From NCBI GenBank assembly GCA_019638705.1, contig JAHBTI010000004.1, positions 1 to 64,000 on the forward strand: DNA of 64,000 bases. The letters are read 5' to 3'. Position numbers and translations under genes: made by a program. This document shows positions 8,137 through 59,107 of this stretch, piece by piece; positions within the stretch are counted from its first letter, which is position 1; each line of letters begins with the position of its first letter. Source of the DNA: Bacteroidota bacterium. GTDB taxonomy: Bacteria > Bacteroidota > Bacteroidia > B-17B0 > Aurantibacillaceae. The notes beneath the pieces are model-generated. The model ran no database searches. It had not been told where the DNA came from and worked only from the letters and a program-made list of their open reading frames with translations.

Positions 8137-8808
8137 ATGAATAATTCAATGAATAAAATTTTAATTGGCGTAAATGCCTTGCTGGTAGCCGCCGTGCTGC
8201 TTTTGTTTGTAAAAGTAAACGGAATAGCAAACCATGAAAAAAGTGAAGAAGCAGAGGAAAGCCATAAGTCGGAAATTGGCGGGCAGCAAGGTGGAAAAAA
8301 CGAACCTGTAAAAGAAGTTGGGAACATTCCCACGGGAAAAATTGCTTATGTAAACATTGACCGCCTGAACGAAGAAAGTTTGGAAATTATTGATTTGGTT
8401 GCCGAAGCAAAACGCCGTAAAAATAATTTGGAAGCCAGTGTAGAAAGTTTGAGTATGCAGTATCAGCAAAAAATTGAAGAATATCAAAACTCTGCAAAAG
8501 CGGGCATTGCACCCCCTTCGGAAATGCAAGCCAAAGAACGTGAGATTATGCAAATTGAAAAAGAAGCGCAGAACAAACAACTTCAAATGGACAATTTGAC
8601 TATGGACATCAGCGAAAAAAATGCGAAATTTCAAAAAAATGTGCACGACTATTTGGTGAAATGGAATAAGGGAGAGTATGATTTTATTTTTTCATACAGC
8701 GAAGCCGTGCCAACGCTTTTGCTTGGTAATTCAACGCTGGAAATTACCGATGAAGTGATTACGGGATTGAATAAGGAATACAAAGAAAGCAAGGGGAAAA
8801 AGAAATAA
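8137..8808 (+). CDS. OmpH/Skp family outer-membrane chaperone
   Basis: 223 residues. An N-terminal hydrophobic segment (about 7-27) is followed by a charged linker, then KIAYVNIDRLNEESLEI, the conserved strand that opens Skp/OmpH proteins. Residues 85-190 are long coiled-coil tentacle helices rich in Glu, Lys and Gln. It ends in strand-like TLEITDEVITGLN. Skp holds unfolded outer-membrane proteins in the periplasm. The N-terminal segment looks like an uncleaved anchor. ATG 8149 is an alternative start; the promoter position favours 8137. Confidence 0.85.
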   Translation: MNNSMNKILIGVNALLVAAVLLLFVKVNGIANHEKSEEAEESHKSEIGGQQGGKNEPVKEVGNIPTGKIAYVNIDRLNEESLEIIDLVAEAKRRKNNLEASVESLSMQYQQKIEEYQNSAKAGIAPPSEMQAKEREIMQIEKEAQNKQLQMDNLTMDISEKNAKFQKNVHDYLVKWNKGEYDFIFSYSEAVPTLLLGNSTLEITDEVITGLNKEYKESKGKKK

Positions 8809-8816
8809 AAAACATT

Positions 8817-8879
8817 GTCATGCTGACGAAGGAAGCATCTTTTTTAGTAAGGTATAGATTCTTCGTTCCTCAAAATGAC
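8817..8879. repeat. Dispersed palindromic repeat, family A
   Basis: The outer arms GTCATGCTGACGAAGGAAGC and the complement of TTCGTTCCTCAAAATGAC form an imperfect hairpin. Same family as 26444-26713 and 29570-29630. It occupies the region before ATG 8901 and shows that the longer frame beginning at 8820 is not the true start. Confidence 0.75.
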
Positions 8880-8900
8880 AAAAAAAGAGTATTAAGGATT

Positions 8901-12463: not shown

Positions 12464-12482
12464 AGTTGTTTAAAGACCACCT

Positions 12483-12545
12483 GTTACTTCGAGTAGCCCG
12501 AAGAATGAGGGCGTATCGAGAAGTGAATTTCGTCGCAATGACATG
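12483..12545. repeat. Dispersed palindromic repeat, family B
   Basis: TTACTTCGAGTAGCCCGAAG and GCGTATCGAGAAGTGA form an imperfect palindrome, inverted relative to the copies at 53987 and 58881-59077. Followed by GAAATAAAATTTAAACA (12571-12587), shared with 59108. Confidence 0.7.
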
Positions 12546-26386: not shown

Positions 26387-26443
26387 AAAATTTTAAAGCA
26401 CGAAGTTAGAGATTTATTTACGATTTGCTTATTGACAATTTAC

Positions 26444-26713
26444 GATTGAAGCAGTTCGTCATGCTGACGAAGGAAGCATCTCTTGTCTTTGGTTTTAGAT
26501 TCTTCGTTCCTCAGAATGACAGCACTCATTTTAGATTGAAGCAGTTTGTCATGCTGACGAAGGAAGCATCTCTTGTCTTTGGTTTTAGATTCTTCGTTCC
26601 TCAGAATGACAGCACTCATTTTAGATTGAAGTAGTTTGTCATGCTGACAAAGGAAGCATCTCTTGTCTTTGGTTTTAGATTCTTCGTTCCTCAGAATGAC
26701 AGTACTCATTTTA
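26444..26713. repeat. Three tandem 90-bp units of palindromic repeat family A
   Basis: Units start at 26444, 26534 and 26624 with near-identical sequence. Each contains the hairpin arms GTCATGCTGACGAAGGAAGC and TTCGTTCCTCAGAATGAC plus a spacer ACTCATTTTAGATTGAAGCA. Unit length divisible by three keeps both strands open, giving false ORFs. Lies in the gap between the methyltransferase and the sugar transporter. Confidence 0.9.
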
Positions 26714-26797
26714 GTTAAAATTTTGCTGTTCAAATTGTCAATTGTAAATTTCAAAATTGTAAATCCGAAAAGCGTATTTTCAACAAAAATTTATTTT

Positions 26798-29569: not shown

Positions 29570-29630
29570 GTCATTCTGAACGATAGTGAAGAATCTCAAA
29601 CAATAGAGATGCTTCGTTCCTCAGCATGAC
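29570..29630. repeat. Dispersed palindromic repeat, family A
   Basis: GTCATTCTGAACG and CGTTCCTCAGCATGAC arms; inverted relative to the array at 26444. Sits between receptor and lipoprotein genes. Confidence 0.7.
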
Positions 29631-29639
29631 AAAACACGT

Positions 29640-31979
29640 TTACTTTTTATCATATAAAATTAACGGCAGAGTAATTCGCAGATTGTACGATACGCCTGCT
29701 GCATCGCAGAAATATCTAAATCTGTCCAAATATTCACGATACCGTTGGTTCAGCAAATTAGTTGCGCTTAAATGCAACCGGATTTTTTGTTTTTTGATTT
29801 GTATTTCCGAAGCTAATTCAATTCCGAACAAATAATAAGCATCGGGCGGCGGCGCAAAATCCACATTTTTCGGTGCGCGCCATTGTTTTGCTACAAACTG
29901 ATTATTGATTTGCAAATAAGAATTTGTAAACATTTTTGTTGAAGGTAAGTTTGTTTTCAAATTCAACTCCGCTCTGTCAGAAGGCATATAAATAAGATAA
30001 TCGTTCACGGAATAATTCCAGCCTCTCACTATCATGCCTTTTGCGATGAAAGAAAAAAAGTTGTTCAACACATATTCCGTTTTCAAATCAATGCCGCTGA
30101 TGCTCACGTTGTCTTGTCTGTACAAAAACACAGGAAACGCGCCGCGTATGGTCAATTCCAATTCACCCGAAGGATACAAGTAAATGTAATTCCTAAATCT
30201 GTTGTAATACGCCGTTAGTTCCGCATTTAATTTTTTTGATTTGTAAATGCCTGTTGCGGTAACATTATAACATTTCTCGGAAACAAAATTTGCATTGCCG
30301 CGCTCAATCGTTCCTGCGCCCTGATGAAGCCCGTTGCTGTAAAGCTCATTGGGAGCAGGCGCACGCCATGCCGAACCTGCATTTACAAACACATTGAAAT
30401 CCGTGCGCGGTTTCCAAATCATTCCTCCGTTGTAAGTGAAATTTTGGAAACTTCTGTCGTGTCCTGTCCAAATTTTTCCTTCGTAGAAATAAGATTGCAA
30501 ATGCTTTTCGTCATAACGCATTCCGATTTCAAACTCCGCTTTTTGCATTACATAACGCTCTGTTGCAAACATACCGAAAGAATTGCTCAAATAATTCGGA
30601 ACAAAAAACCGTCCTGTGTAAGTGTTGGCTTGGTGCATATAGCTTGCGCCAAACATGCCTCTGAACGATTTGATGTTGTCGTGTTCCAAAATAGCATCGG
30701 CGGTTTGCGAAACGATGTGCAAATTCATGTCGGGCAAAACAATACCTGTTTGTTTTTCAGTTGTTGTTAAGCGGCGTAAATCATATTCCTGCCTGATGTT
30801 GTATTGCCGCGCGTATTGCAAGGCTGCTCTCCATTTCGGTGAAAAATGATAGTGCGCTTCTCCTTTCATCAATTCGTGCATTACCGATTGTTTGGGACTT
30901 GCAAGTACATAAGAAAAAGAAGCGAGGCTGTCCACAGGTTTTCCCAATTTCAAAGCATTGTTTAAGTCGGTTAAATTGCCGATGTGCGAGCCTTTAAAAA
31001 TTCCGATGTCGGAATTGAAGCGTGAATAATACATTTCAACGCCCCAACGTTTTTTGTGATAACCCAGAGCGGCAGAAAAATTTTTTTCTTCCAAGCCTGT
31101 GTTGTTCAAATAATAATCGGGTGTTTTTATGTTACCGCCTTTTTTCAAGCTGCCTTGCACACGCCAACTGAACGTTTTGAGTTTTTCAAAATTTCCCTCT
31201 AACATTCCTGAAACCGCGCCTGAACGTCCATTACTCAATCCGACTAAATTTACTTCGCCTGTCATGGCAACAGTGTCGGGCAGCTCATTCGGCTCTACCA
31301 GCACCACGCCCGCTATGGCATCGCTGCCGTAACGAATAGCACTTACGCCTTTTATCACCGAAATTTTTTTCGCCATAAAAGGGTCTATTTCGGGCGCGTG
31401 TTCGTTGCCCCACTGCTGTCCTTCTTGCCGAATACCATTATTTAAAATAAGCAAACGATAACCCTGCATACCGTGAAGCATAGGTTTTGAAATGCTTGCG
31501 CCTGTGTTCAGCGCGGTAACGCCGCTTATGTTTTTCAAGGCTTCGCCCAAACTTTGACCTTTTGTTTTTTGCATCTCCTCTTCGGAAAGCTTGTCCAATG
31601 TTTGCGTTTTTTTCATCTCCACACGCTTGTCCATAATATCCACTTCTTCCAAATTATTAAGGCTGTGCGGCAATTTCAACAAAACGCTTTTTGACTTTGA
31701 CAAACTGATATTAAAAATAGTGTCTTTGCAACCGACGTGCTGAACCATGATTTGGTAATCGCCTTTGCAAAGATTTTCAAAACTAAATTCCCCTTTTTCG
31801 TTTGTCTGAATTATTTTTTCGGGCAACAGCAATTTTACCACCGCAAAACCAAGTGTTTCGTGGTTGTCTTCGTCTTGCACCACGCCGCGCAAAGTCAAAT
31901 TGCAAGTTTGCGATTTGAAAATTGTGGGAGCAAATACAAGAGCGCACAAGAGTATGTGTAATCTTAATTGCATACGCAT
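29640..31979 (-). CDS. TonB-dependent receptor with carboxypeptidase-like domain
   Basis: 779 residues from ATG 31979 (ATG 31973 is also possible). Signal peptide to about residue 24. A carboxypeptidase-regulatory-like beta domain (about 27-105; LRGVVQDEDNHETLGFAVV, GEFSFENLCKGDY) precedes the plug (about 125-240; GEALKNISGV, RYGSDAIAGVV) and a 22-strand barrel ending in Tyr/Leu-rich strands (YNLRITLPLILYDKK). In the gene order it follows a Cys/His-rich secreted peptide and precedes a lipoprotein. This arrangement suggests import of a metal or metal complex (inferred). Confidence 0.9.
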   Translation of the reverse strand: MRMQLRLHILLCALVFAPTIFKSQTCNLTLRGVVQDEDNHETLGFAVVKLLLPEKIIQTNEKGEFSFENLCKGDYQIMVQHVGCKDTIFNISLSKSKSVLLKLPHSLNNLEEVDIMDKRVEMKKTQTLDKLSEEEMQKTKGQSLGEALKNISGVTALNTGASISKPMLHGMQGYRLLILNNGIRQEGQQWGNEHAPEIDPFMAKKISVIKGVSAIRYGSDAIAGVVLVEPNELPDTVAMTGEVNLVGLSNGRSGAVSGMLEGNFEKLKTFSWRVQGSLKKGGNIKTPDYYLNNTGLEEKNFSAALGYHKKRWGVEMYYSRFNSDIGIFKGSHIGNLTDLNNALKLGKPVDSLASFSYVLASPKQSVMHELMKGEAHYHFSPKWRAALQYARQYNIRQEYDLRRLTTTEKQTGIVLPDMNLHIVSQTADAILEHDNIKSFRGMFGASYMHQANTYTGRFFVPNYLSNSFGMFATERYVMQKAEFEIGMRYDEKHLQSYFYEGKIWTGHDRSFQNFTYNGGMIWKPRTDFNVFVNAGSAWRAPAPNELYSNGLHQGAGTIERGNANFVSEKCYNVTATGIYKSKKLNAELTAYYNRFRNYIYLYPSGELELTIRGAFPVFLYRQDNVSISGIDLKTEYVLNNFFSFIAKGMIVRGWNYSVNDYLIYMPSDRAELNLKTNLPSTKMFTNSYLQINNQFVAKQWRAPKNVDFAPPPDAYYLFGIELASEIQIKKQKIRLHLSATNLLNQRYREYLDRFRYFCDAAGVSYNLRITLPLILYDKK

Positions 31980-32498: not shown

Positions 32499-32529
32499 TT
32501 TGTTGCCTCAATTATTTTCTTTAGTTTTG
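32499..32529 (+). promoter_or_regulatory. Promoter of the structured leader and XRE gene
   Basis: TTTG (32499-32502), 19 bases, TAGTTTTG (32522-32529): matches both -33 and -7 Bacteroidota elements. Predicted start near 32533, 253 bases before ATG 32786. The motif GAAATTTAAACAGTTTCTTA lies just upstream (32475-32494). Confidence 0.6.
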
Positions 32530-32589
32530 GGTTACACAAGAAAAATTTGCCTATTGATTAAATAAAAAACACAAAACATAAATTACGTT

Positions 32590-32741
32590 TTTGAACTGAA
32601 CTCGTCTTACTCAATCCACCAAAATTATAACAATACGAAATTCAGTGAGAAACGCCCGAGAGGGCGTTGGCTTACTGTTCGTATTGTAGGGCTTGGTGGC
32701 TCTGAGTGAGATGCAGTATAGTTTAACGCCCGATTTTTTTT
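32590..32741 (+). ncRNA. Structured leader with alternative hairpins
   Basis: A long imperfect inverted repeat: TACTCA/TGAGTG, CCACCAA (32616-32622)/TTGGTGG (32693-32699), CAATACGAA (32631-32639)/TTCGTATTG (32678-32686), and a core AACGCCC (32651-32657) GAGA GGGCGTT (32662-32668). A second AACGCCC at 32725-32731, followed by GA and T8, can pair with the same GGGCGTT to make a terminator. Mutually exclusive pairing upstream of a regulator gene suggests an attenuator or riboregulator. Alternatively it is a palindromic repeat of transposon origin; the sequence alone does not decide. Confidence 0.5.
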
Positions 32742-32785
32742 GTGCTTACCACAAAGAATACAAACACCATAATTTTTTTTGCTTT

Positions 32786-33058
32786 ATGAAAAACATAAAC
32801 CTAAACAACAAAAAAATACTTGCCATTACGGGCGAGTTTGTTAAAACCAAAAGAAAACAACTCAACTATTGCCATGACGGAGTGGCGAAAGCTGTAAACA
32901 TTTCGCAACCCATTGTGAGCAAAATAGAGCACGGCATACACTCGGGTTTAAAATATACTATGCTTCACAACATTCTTGATTACTTAAAAACAAACATGGC
33001 AGAGCTTGACGAATACATTAAGCAAAAAAACGCCAATGATAATTTAGTTGCAGAGTAA
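32786..33058 (+). CDS. XRE-family regulator
   Basis: 90 residues from ATG 32786. Residues 10-75 form the HTH: EFVKTKRKQLNY, DGVAKAVNISQPIVSKIEHG (recognition helix), then helical LHNILDYLKTNMAELDEYI. It follows a 250-nt structured leader. Two 17-bp palindromes downstream (33094-33128), in front of the secreted-protein genes, are likely binding sites. Expected to control the cluster 33208-38945; this is inference from position. Confidence 0.85.
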   Translation: MKNINLNNKKILAITGEFVKTKRKQLNYCHDGVAKAVNISQPIVSKIEHGIHSGLKYTMLHNILDYLKTNMAELDEYIKQKNANDNLVAE

Positions 33059-33093
33059 AAAATATGCCTGTGAGGAATAAAAACCAACAACTT

Positions 33094-33128
33094 TATAACT
33101 GAGGGTTATAATATAACTCAGAGTTATA
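33094..33128. promoter_or_regulatory. Twin 17-bp palindromic operators
   Basis: TATAACTGAGGGTTATA (33094-33110) and TATAACTCAGAGTTATA (33112-33128, perfect 8-1-8) in tandem with 1 base between, in the gap between the XRE gene and 33208. The pair also forms a 22-bp inverted repeat with each other. Confidence 0.55.
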
Positions 33129-33207
33129 AAGTTTACCCTTTGTTTTTTGAATTTTACGCGGGTTTCGTAATAGGTTTGTGGCATAAATTTTTAAAACCAA
33201 ATTTAGT

Positions 33208-34461
33208 ATGCAACACATTACTCAAAACATCAGAAACACAAACGCAACAAGCGTATGTAAAAAATTAATTTTCGGCTTGGCATTTTTTGCTGCCACCGTT
33301 ACGGTAAAAGCGCAAATCGGTTGGCCTTGGCCTCCCGATTTACCTGTTTTTGAAAGCCCCTATCAACCTCTTGAAGAATACATACAGTCATCAAGAGCGT
33401 GTTATGTTAATTCTGTGCCTTGGTATGAGGGCGGAAATACAGTTGCAATGAATCCGGCTACCAGCATTTATGCTGCCACGGTTAATTTAACCCCCAACGT
33501 TATAGGACCCTGCAATAATGTTGATTTTATTTTGCAGGCAAACAGCAAAAAAACAGTTTTTTTGAAAACAAACGGAAATGTAGGTATAGGAATAGATAAC
33601 GATAGCCCAAGCGCGGTTTTAGATGTAAGCGAATTTGCGGGTGCAGGCAATCCAAGCTCTCATTTAAAAATATACGGCGATGCTGACGGAAGCATAGAAA
33701 GCACAGGCAATATGCACTTATACGCTGCGTCAAGCTCTCTGTTTCAAGTTACGTTTGGGGAATTTGGAAACCCAAACGGCAATAATCATAATGTCTTGAC
33801 AATAGACGGAACAACTAACGACATCTCTTTAAATGGCACAGGAAACGTAAGTGGAGATTTAAACGTAAACGGGTACACAAGTGTACATTCAGGTTTAGGT
33901 GTAACAGGTGGTTTTGGTGTGAACGGTTCAGCTGCCATTACAGGCGCGGCAAGCATTGGTGGCAATGCAAATGTGGGCGGTGCAGCAAACATTACAGGCA
34001 CGGCGAATATTGGCGGTGCAGCAAACATTGCAGGCAAAACAATTATTGGCAACCAACAAGGAGCAACAAACTCAGCCACATTAAACATAAATGTAAACGG
34101 TGGCAATGCTATTGAAGTATTTGACCAAGCAAGCAGTGGAAGTGGCAATGCCAAAGTAAATTTTAGAGTAAAAGCAAACGGTATTGTTTACTCACGCGAA
34201 GTAAATGTACAACTCACTAACTTTCCTGATTACGTTTTTAATAAAGATTACAAACTGCCAAGTTTGGAAAGCCTTGACGAATACATTAAGCAAAACAAAC
34301 ATTTGCCTAATGTGCCAACTGCAAAAGAAGTTGAAACCAACGGCGCAAACTTGGGCGAACTAAGCCGCATACAAATGGAAAAAATTGAAGAACTGACTTT
34401 GTATGTAATAGAGCTGAAAAAAGAAATTGAGGCTTTGAAAAAACAACAAAGCAAAAAATAA
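33208..34461 (+). CDS. Secreted repeat protein with tail-fibre-like C-terminal domain
   Basis: 417 residues. Signal peptide (about 15-37, ending VKAQ). N-domain of about 120 residues, then residues 205-290 contain short six-residue repeats (NVGGAAN, ITGTANIGGAAN, IAGKTIIG) expected to fold as a beta-helix. The C-terminus (about 335-417) has DYVFNKDYKLPSLESLDEYI, KHLPNVPTAKEVE and a coiled coil LTLYVIELKKEIEALKK, the Bacteroidota variant of trimerising fibre tail domains. Likely a surface fibre or adhesin. No T9SS tail is present. Starts the secreted cluster after the operators. Confidence 0.75.
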   Translation: MQHITQNIRNTNATSVCKKLIFGLAFFAATVTVKAQIGWPWPPDLPVFESPYQPLEEYIQSSRACYVNSVPWYEGGNTVAMNPATSIYAATVNLTPNVIGPCNNVDFILQANSKKTVFLKTNGNVGIGIDNDSPSAVLDVSEFAGAGNPSSHLKIYGDADGSIESTGNMHLYAASSSLFQVTFGEFGNPNGNNHNVLTIDGTTNDISLNGTGNVSGDLNVNGYTSVHSGLGVTGGFGVNGSAAITGAASIGGNANVGGAANITGTANIGGAANIAGKTIIGNQQGATNSATLNINVNGGNAIEVFDQASSGSGNAKVNFRVKANGIVYSREVNVQLTNFPDYVFNKDYKLPSLESLDEYIKQNKHLPNVPTAKEVETNGANLGELSRIQMEKIEELTLYVIELKKEIEALKKQQSKK

Positions 34462-53986: not shown

Positions 53987-54032
53987 TGTCGTTTCTCGAT
54001 ACGCCTCTTGTTGTCGGCTACTCGAAATGACA
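53987..54032. repeat. Dispersed palindromic repeat, family B
   Basis: TGTCGTTTCTCGATACGC and TACTCGAAATGACA arms, just after the E2 stop. Confidence 0.65.
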
Positions 54033-58881: not shown

Positions 58882-59077
58882 TCACTTCTCGATACGCTCT
58901 CATTCTTCGGGCTACTCGAAGTGACAACTGTCAGTTCGAGTAGGTTTGCTGCCTCTTTGCAAACCGTATCGAGAACTGAAGCCGTAAAATCACTTCTCGA
59001 TACGCCTCTTATCGTCGGCTACTCGAAGTGACAGAGCTTCTCGATACGCCCTCATTCTTCGGGCTACTCGAAGTGAC
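58881..59077. repeat. Cluster of four palindromic repeats, family B
   Basis: Copies at 58881-58925, 58927-58981 (inverted, shorter core), 58990-59032 and 59036-59077, each with GTCACTTCTCGATACGC / CTACTCGAAGTGAC arms. Located between the T9SS gene and the GT4 gene. Confidence 0.85.
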
Positions 59078-59107
59078 AGGGGGGATACGCCCCCGCAACA
59101 TTTTCTT

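Follow-up and report, generated by a model that had tools for sequence, protein, structure and literature searches.

Introduction

Upstream of a small XRE-type regulator gene of a Bacteroidota bacterium lies a leader whose complementary segments cannot all pair at the same time. The locus is part of a stretch of 64,000 nucleotides, here called the window (assembly GCA_019638705.1, contig JAHBTI010000004.1, positions 1 to 64,000 of the forward strand). An earlier note, made from the letters alone, saw in this leader the architecture of an attenuator or riboswitch controlling a regulator gene, and kept a palindromic mobile repeat as a fallback. This raises the question whether the leader is a regulatory RNA and, if so, of which kind and for which genes.

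In this study, we describe a new, phylum-wide family of cis-acting 5'-leader RNAs which most likely controls read-through by transcription attenuation. We give this reading as a whole a probability of roughly 0.66. The RNA family itself and its cis position are solid; termination, the default state and the signal are inferred, and there are no transcript data.

Results

Promoter and fold of the window leader

The leader begins behind a promoter-like sequence (Table 1), which fits the TTTG/TAnnTTTG consensus that we take to be the Bacteroidota promoter type. Transcription is inferred to start at about 32536, which leaves approximately 250 nt to the ATG at 32786. This agrees with the leader length in the earlier note, in which the promoter, both AACGCCC copies, GGGCGTT, the T8 run and the arms of the long hairpin were also correctly placed. 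The folding prediction which it had suggested as a check gave a minimum free energy (MFE) of -83.5 kcal/mol for 32530-32790 as compared to -47.9 +/- 4.7 kcal/mol for 200 dinucleotide shuffles (z -7.5); the leader at 32585-32742 folds far better than chance.

Table 1. Features of the leader and of the genes behind it (window coordinates), and other copies in the same genome
Feature	Position	Strand	Remarks
Bacteroidota-type promoter, TTTG-N19-TAGTTTTG	32499-32529	+	TTTG 32499-32502, 19-nt spacer, TAGTTTTG 32522-32529; from sequence, consensus match
Region 1, 5' invading strand ACGTTTTTGAACTGAA	32585-32600	+	partner: region 2 (32641-32657)
RNA core matched by family model R3	32606-32742	+	76.6 bits, E 2.3e-13 (own genome)
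P1 5' strand CTTACTCA	32606-32613	+	partner TGAGTGAG 32703-32710; from fold, covaries in A7 and A8
P2 5' strand CCACCAA	32616-32622	+	partner TTGGTGG 32693-32699; fold, A7, A8
P3 5' strand CAATACGAA	32631-32639	+	partner TTCGTATTG 32678-32686; fold, A7, A8
Region 2 TTCAGTGAGAAACGCCC (P4 and P5 5' strands)	32641-32657	+	partner: region 1 or region 3
P4 strands CAGTGAG/CTTACTG	32643-32649/32671-32677
P5 strands AACGCCC/GGGCGTT	32651-32657/32662-32668
Region 3 GGGCGTTGGCTTACTG (P5 and P4 3' strands)	32662-32677	+	partner: region 2 or region 4
P3', P2', P1' strands and hairpin internal-loop segments	32678-32710	+
Region 4 AACGCCC	32725-32731	+	pairs with GGGCGTT of region 3
U8 run	32734-32741	+	GA between region 4 and T8; intrinsic-terminator-like end with 3:4
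Downstream gene, 90-aa HTH_3 (XRE-type) protein	32786-33058	+
Next gene, 417 aa	33208-34461	+	homologue also behind the C9 copy
C14 copy			downstream: EcoRI-type methylase
C18 copy			downstream: type IIG restriction-modification enzyme
C23 copy			downstream: type III Mod-Res pair
C9 copy			downstream: LuxR-type regulator
C46, C45 copies			downstream: genes without family

The hairpin of the window copy is made up of five stacked helices, P1 to P5. Four strands, regions 1 to 4, pair in the order 1:2, 2:3 (the hairpin) and 3:4, with region 4 adjoining the U-run. Three of these strands were already present in the alternative pairings of the earlier note; the fourth, as well as P1 and P4, had been missed. 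In the window copy the duplex of regions 1 and 2 is calculated at -15.7 kcal/mol and that of region 4 with the GGGCGTT of region 3 at -14.7 kcal/mol. The MFE structure of a transcript ending at 32657 contains 1:2, and longer transcripts refold to the P1-P5 hairpin. If the full leader is constrained to form 3:4, 1:2 returns (-48.7 kcal/mol vs -70.7 kcal/mol for the 2:3 state).

A family of leaders detected by covariance models

By BLAST the leader is a single copy in its own genome of 3.2 Mb, and BLAST-level searches of own, related and phage DNA returned only the leader itself. One weak BLAST match of 15 nt, at locus C14, falls at the 3' end of a second long hairpin, which precedes a gene for an EcoRI-type DNA methylase and lies beside CBASS-type genes. 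Its stem order is identical to that of the window hairpin, and the alternative pairing is altered on both sides (AACGCCC/GGGCGUU in the window, ACACGCC/GGCGUGU in C14). A model from the single sequence (R1) was too weak, and the covariance model R2 was built from the window leader and this diverged relative. The covariation count of the first two-sequence alignment (A3), which was padded by hand with N, is not used as evidence.

R2 detected a third copy in the window's genome at E 1.7e-12 and further members in other bacterial families of the same phylum; in one such family, 14 of 54 genomes together carry 26 copies. In the named genome collection, an exact core pattern picked out at least 118 stretches, almost all of which are from Bacteroidota. 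About five of the matches fall in coding DNA by chance; most of the matches tested with R2 were confirmed. Taxa with pattern matches include Alistipes, Prevotella, Bacteroides, Flavobacterium, Ignavibacteria and Kapabacteria. The set collected by pattern is biased for the core sequence, and the final model R3 (89 sequences) is partly pattern-selected. Of the 296 nearly complete genomes of the class, R3 finds the RNA in at least 81 (a lower bound, only ten candidates being scored per genome), with E-values reaching 1e-26; E-values of models built here are rough. The search of Bacteroidota genomes and the covariance model proposed in the earlier note have thus recovered a large covarying family.

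Seven copies are found in the window's genome, namely C34 (the window copy), C14, C46, C18, C9, C23 and C45. The window copy meets all features of the family, i.e. the P1-P5 hairpin, the GAAA/ACCU internal loop, AA/UU atop P2 and the 3' tract with its U-run. Its sequence was among the model sources, as was the C14 copy (136 bits); copies outside the models score 44.7-107 bits.

The core pattern also matches seven IMG/VR contigs, six of them apparently genuine, and phages or prophages may carry the RNA. The one contig tested (L293) matched no named phage record. The 15-mer ACGCCCGATTTTTTT alone was rejected as a probe for viral contigs, giving chance matches without hairpin. Three leader copies are located within 1.2 kb at G027:C1:14000-18500 (L324 811, 1398 and 1767). 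The two that score best (1398, 1767) lie at a distance of only 369 nt without an intervening gene, so that the RNA itself is arranged in tandem.

Covariation and strand specificity

In alignment A7, 94.4% of the pair cells are standard and 38 of 40 pairs show changes on both sides; the covariation score is 0.781 as compared to 0.200 in shuffled and at most 0.11 in slid controls. Alignment A8, gathered by R3 without a sequence pattern, gives 94.0% paired cells, changes on both sides at 38 of 40 pairs and a score of 0.820. The fitting of both alignments to the model works in its favour, but the slid controls lie far below. Chance inverted repeats are refuted by the z-score of the fold, the E-values and the covariation in A7 and A8, and we see practically no room left for them.

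Of the two strands, the sense strand has the better fold in 113 of 120 members, and the MFE structures contain 538 G-U pairs on the sense as compared to 329 on the antisense strand, which argues for an RNA rather than a DNA hairpin. Near-invariant unpaired positions flank P2 (GAAA / CCU, GG on the 3' side) in A8, the set gathered without a sequence pattern, and are the best place to seek the contact of a sensor.

Co-evolution of the four strands

Own segments were compared with segments swapped in from other members (120 non-redundant members). The own 1:2 duplex is better in 118 of 120 (-18.3 vs -11.2 kcal/mol swapped, p 2e-21) and the own 3:4 duplex in 107 of 120 (-16.7 vs -11.4 kcal/mol, p 1e-16). 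The result was replicated in A8 with 44 of 48 for 1:2 and 45 of 48 for 3:4. These tests ignore the tree, but two control pairings with the same phylogeny show no gain of own over swapped segments, neither in the 120 members nor in A8. For transcripts that stop at the apex of the hairpin, the MFE structure includes 6 bp or more of 1:2 in every one of the 120 members, with a median of 18 bp; with swapped strands this holds for 85 of 120 (median 12 bp). The 3:4 helix ends -1 to +2 nt from the U-run in 114 of 120 members; in a few members the U-run is poor.

Genomic position and downstream genes

The next ORF is co-directional in 102 of 109 loci, as compared to 67 of 110 for the upstream gene, from which we conclude that the family sits in 5' untranslated regions; the start codon usually lies 40-120 nt past the core. 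The genes behind it have no family in common. They encode restriction-modification enzymes, small HTH regulators, lipoproteins and ORFans, and Pfam assigns 74 families to the 96 downstream proteins of other genomes, none of them in more than three proteins (among the commonest are BspA-type LRR and Cro/C1 HTH with three each). Defence models match few of these proteins. The link to restriction-modification is striking in the window's genome and not general. At other EcoRI-type methylase loci of the class the leader is absent in front of the gene, as judged by eye, and it is therefore not fixed to this gene. The tie to a regulator gene, as in the earlier note, holds insofar as the XRE gene follows the window leader; in the family it is one of many unrelated downstream genes. 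CBASS-like genes (DncV-like nucleotidyltransferase, patatin, HNH) lie directly upstream of the leader-methylase unit (L016 1942-4816).

Homologues of the XRE gene were not found in 60 related genomes nor in the genome-contig and viral-contig collections. The gene at 33208-34461 has a homologue in the C9 operon (tblastn, E 3e-20), where a LuxR-type gene takes the place of the XRE gene. The C9 unit (L329 2566-4300) and window 32606-34461 are paralogous operons with a common leader RNA and a homologous cell-surface-like protein, as if the small HTH gene between the leader and the rest of the operon had been swapped for another. Behind the XRE gene, at 33089-33134, a near-perfect palindrome is followed by a T-rich run. 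This is probably an intrinsic terminator, in which case the XRE gene may form a transcription unit of its own.

Relation to known systems

No Rfam 15 model matches the element at the gathering threshold, and at a relaxed threshold there was no credible match in the window, the diverged relative M or ten other member loci; 6S RNA was tried and gave no match. The statement of the earlier note that no described RNA family fits stands as far as Rfam 15 goes. Searches of the open literature, which leave out subscription journals and preprints, yielded no description of this RNA family. Its absence from Rfam is probably due to drifting sequence and unrelated genes, which defeat motif searches centred on genes.

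With the trp and his attenuators the family shares four strands in the same order, a 2:3 pairing that excludes 1:2 and 3:4, and U residues after 3:4; the trp-type criterion of mutually exclusive 1:2/3:4 and 2:3 pairings is met. Unlike these attenuators, it precedes unrelated genes in many lineages, its 2:3 pairing tops a long P1-P3 scaffold, and frames for a leader peptide are depleted. ATG ORFs of at least six codons ending in region 1-2 were found in 15 of 90 cases, as compared to 50 expected from shuffles, which makes a leader peptide unlikely. Terminating riboswitches (e.g. the TPP, preQ1 and SAM classes) also have an aptamer-like domain in the 5' untranslated region, conserved internal loops and an alternative terminator pairing. 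The loops of the present family (GAAA, GG, CCU) meet this criterion; the family has no known ligand, no metabolic theme downstream and no Rfam match.

FopS acts in trans on susC-like mRNAs by a single-stranded 5' seed followed by a terminator hairpin (PMC11697453). FopS and GibS of Bacteroides are likewise multicopy structured Bacteroidota RNAs, with a phage example (PMC11697453). The present element is a long-hairpin leader and lacks the architecture of a seed and one terminator hairpin. The Bacteroidetes candidates HMP_4078, HMP2_4205 and HMP2_1065 of Fremin and Bhatt 2021 (PMC8040213) are palindromic and structured too, and some are predicted terminators. They are located near other genes (phage domains, TPR proteins); a partial overlap with the present family is not excluded.

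Discussion

A proposed model of attenuation

In the proposed mechanism, region 1 of the emerging RNA would pair with region 2, leaving region 3 free for region 4 beside the U-run. The 3:4 helix with the U-run would then act as a terminator and keep the gene off. Closure of the long P1-P5 hairpin by regions 2 and 3 would leave region 4 free, act as antiterminator and turn the gene on. Which state forms probably depends on a protein or small ligand that recognises the conserved internal loops, or on folding kinetics; candidate recognition loops are GAAA/ACCU between P1 and P2 and AAttt/GGt..T above P2. Both termination by the 3:4 state and the existence of something that toggles the switch are inferred. 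The architecture of an attenuator or riboswitch, as read by the earlier note, has gained covarying relatives upstream of genes and exclusive pairings that co-evolve; attenuating activity itself remains an inference.

Several findings speak against attenuation. The 2:3 state of the window copy is more stable than the forced 3:4 state by 22 kcal/mol, so that the gene would just stay on if equilibrium were reached, and switching must be kinetic or ligand-driven. The 3:4 helix encloses a loop of about 56 nt, long for a terminator, and no theme common to the downstream genes points to a signal.

Two other RNA-based explanations have to be weighed. The element might be a stand-alone, trans-acting small RNA which ends at the U-run and lies before genes by coincidence. 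Its own promoter and U-run end, the lack of a common downstream gene family and the many copies per genome, as in multicopy small RNA families such as FopS (PMC11697453), are all compatible with this. Coincidence, however, does not fit a downstream gene that is nearly always co-directional and usually starts 40-120 nt past the core while the upstream gene is near random; most members have no terminator in the 2:3 hairpin state, and region 4 tracks region 3 of its own molecule. We consider such a small RNA unlikely. About equally unlikely is a leader whose hairpin binds a protein or ligand and acts on translation or mRNA stability instead of termination. A very stable hairpin near the start codon and conserved internal loops of the kind seen at binding sites would suit it, but the co-evolution of 3:4 and its exact end at the U-run are left unexplained, and the tract, which precedes the start codon, is not an obvious anti-SD.

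A mobile DNA palindrome (MITE or REP-like), or an integron attC-type site folding as single-stranded DNA, we hold to be very improbable. Copies are dispersed and sometimes close-set (G027, G262, G252, G332), accessory genes begin right behind the element as in cassettes, and some EcoRI-type methylase homologues lack it. Against this, copies of the same genome have diverged in sequence yet kept their pairing, the window copy is single by BLAST, and the covariation is strand-specific. The attC core pair at the hairpin base was not seen (by eye), U-run and promoter are unexpected for attC, and no integron array of copies was found in the larger regions fetched. The strand-specific covariation together with the fixed 5'-UTR position thus disfavours the mobile repeat which the earlier note had allowed for. 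Transcription attenuation in cis remains our preferred reading.

If the leader is an attenuator, it would be a common RNA gate on Bacteroidota accessory genes, e.g. restriction-modification, including those of gut Bacteroides, Prevotella and Alistipes. The RNA is spread over at least 27% of the sampled genomes of the class with up to ten copies per genome, and cis-regulatory RNAs this widespread usually mark a general signal. We tentatively suggest, as a possibility only, that one Bacteroidota-wide RNA switch acts as a portable gate in front of newly acquired genes, at which a common signal, through an unidentified protein or metabolite, releases the transcription of accessory genes. Its cargo would span restriction-modification systems, HTH regulators, surface proteins and ORFans. 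The covariance alignment makes the idea of an RNA gate directly testable.

Other repeats and hairpins

In two loci of related genomes (L048, L050), long hairpins with GTTAGC/GTTGGC cores, which have the look of attC-type cassette borders, precede EcoRI-type methylase genes. The window itself contains three tandem repeats of 90 nt, 94-97% alike, at 26438-26714. A diverged copy of the repeat lies at 8797-8893, and near 29597-29641 there are partial copies in inverted orientation. GC-richer dispersed repeats, cttctcgatacg...ctactcgaagtgaca, are present in both orientations at 12477-12526, 53993-54032 and 58882-59083 and are 93-98% alike.
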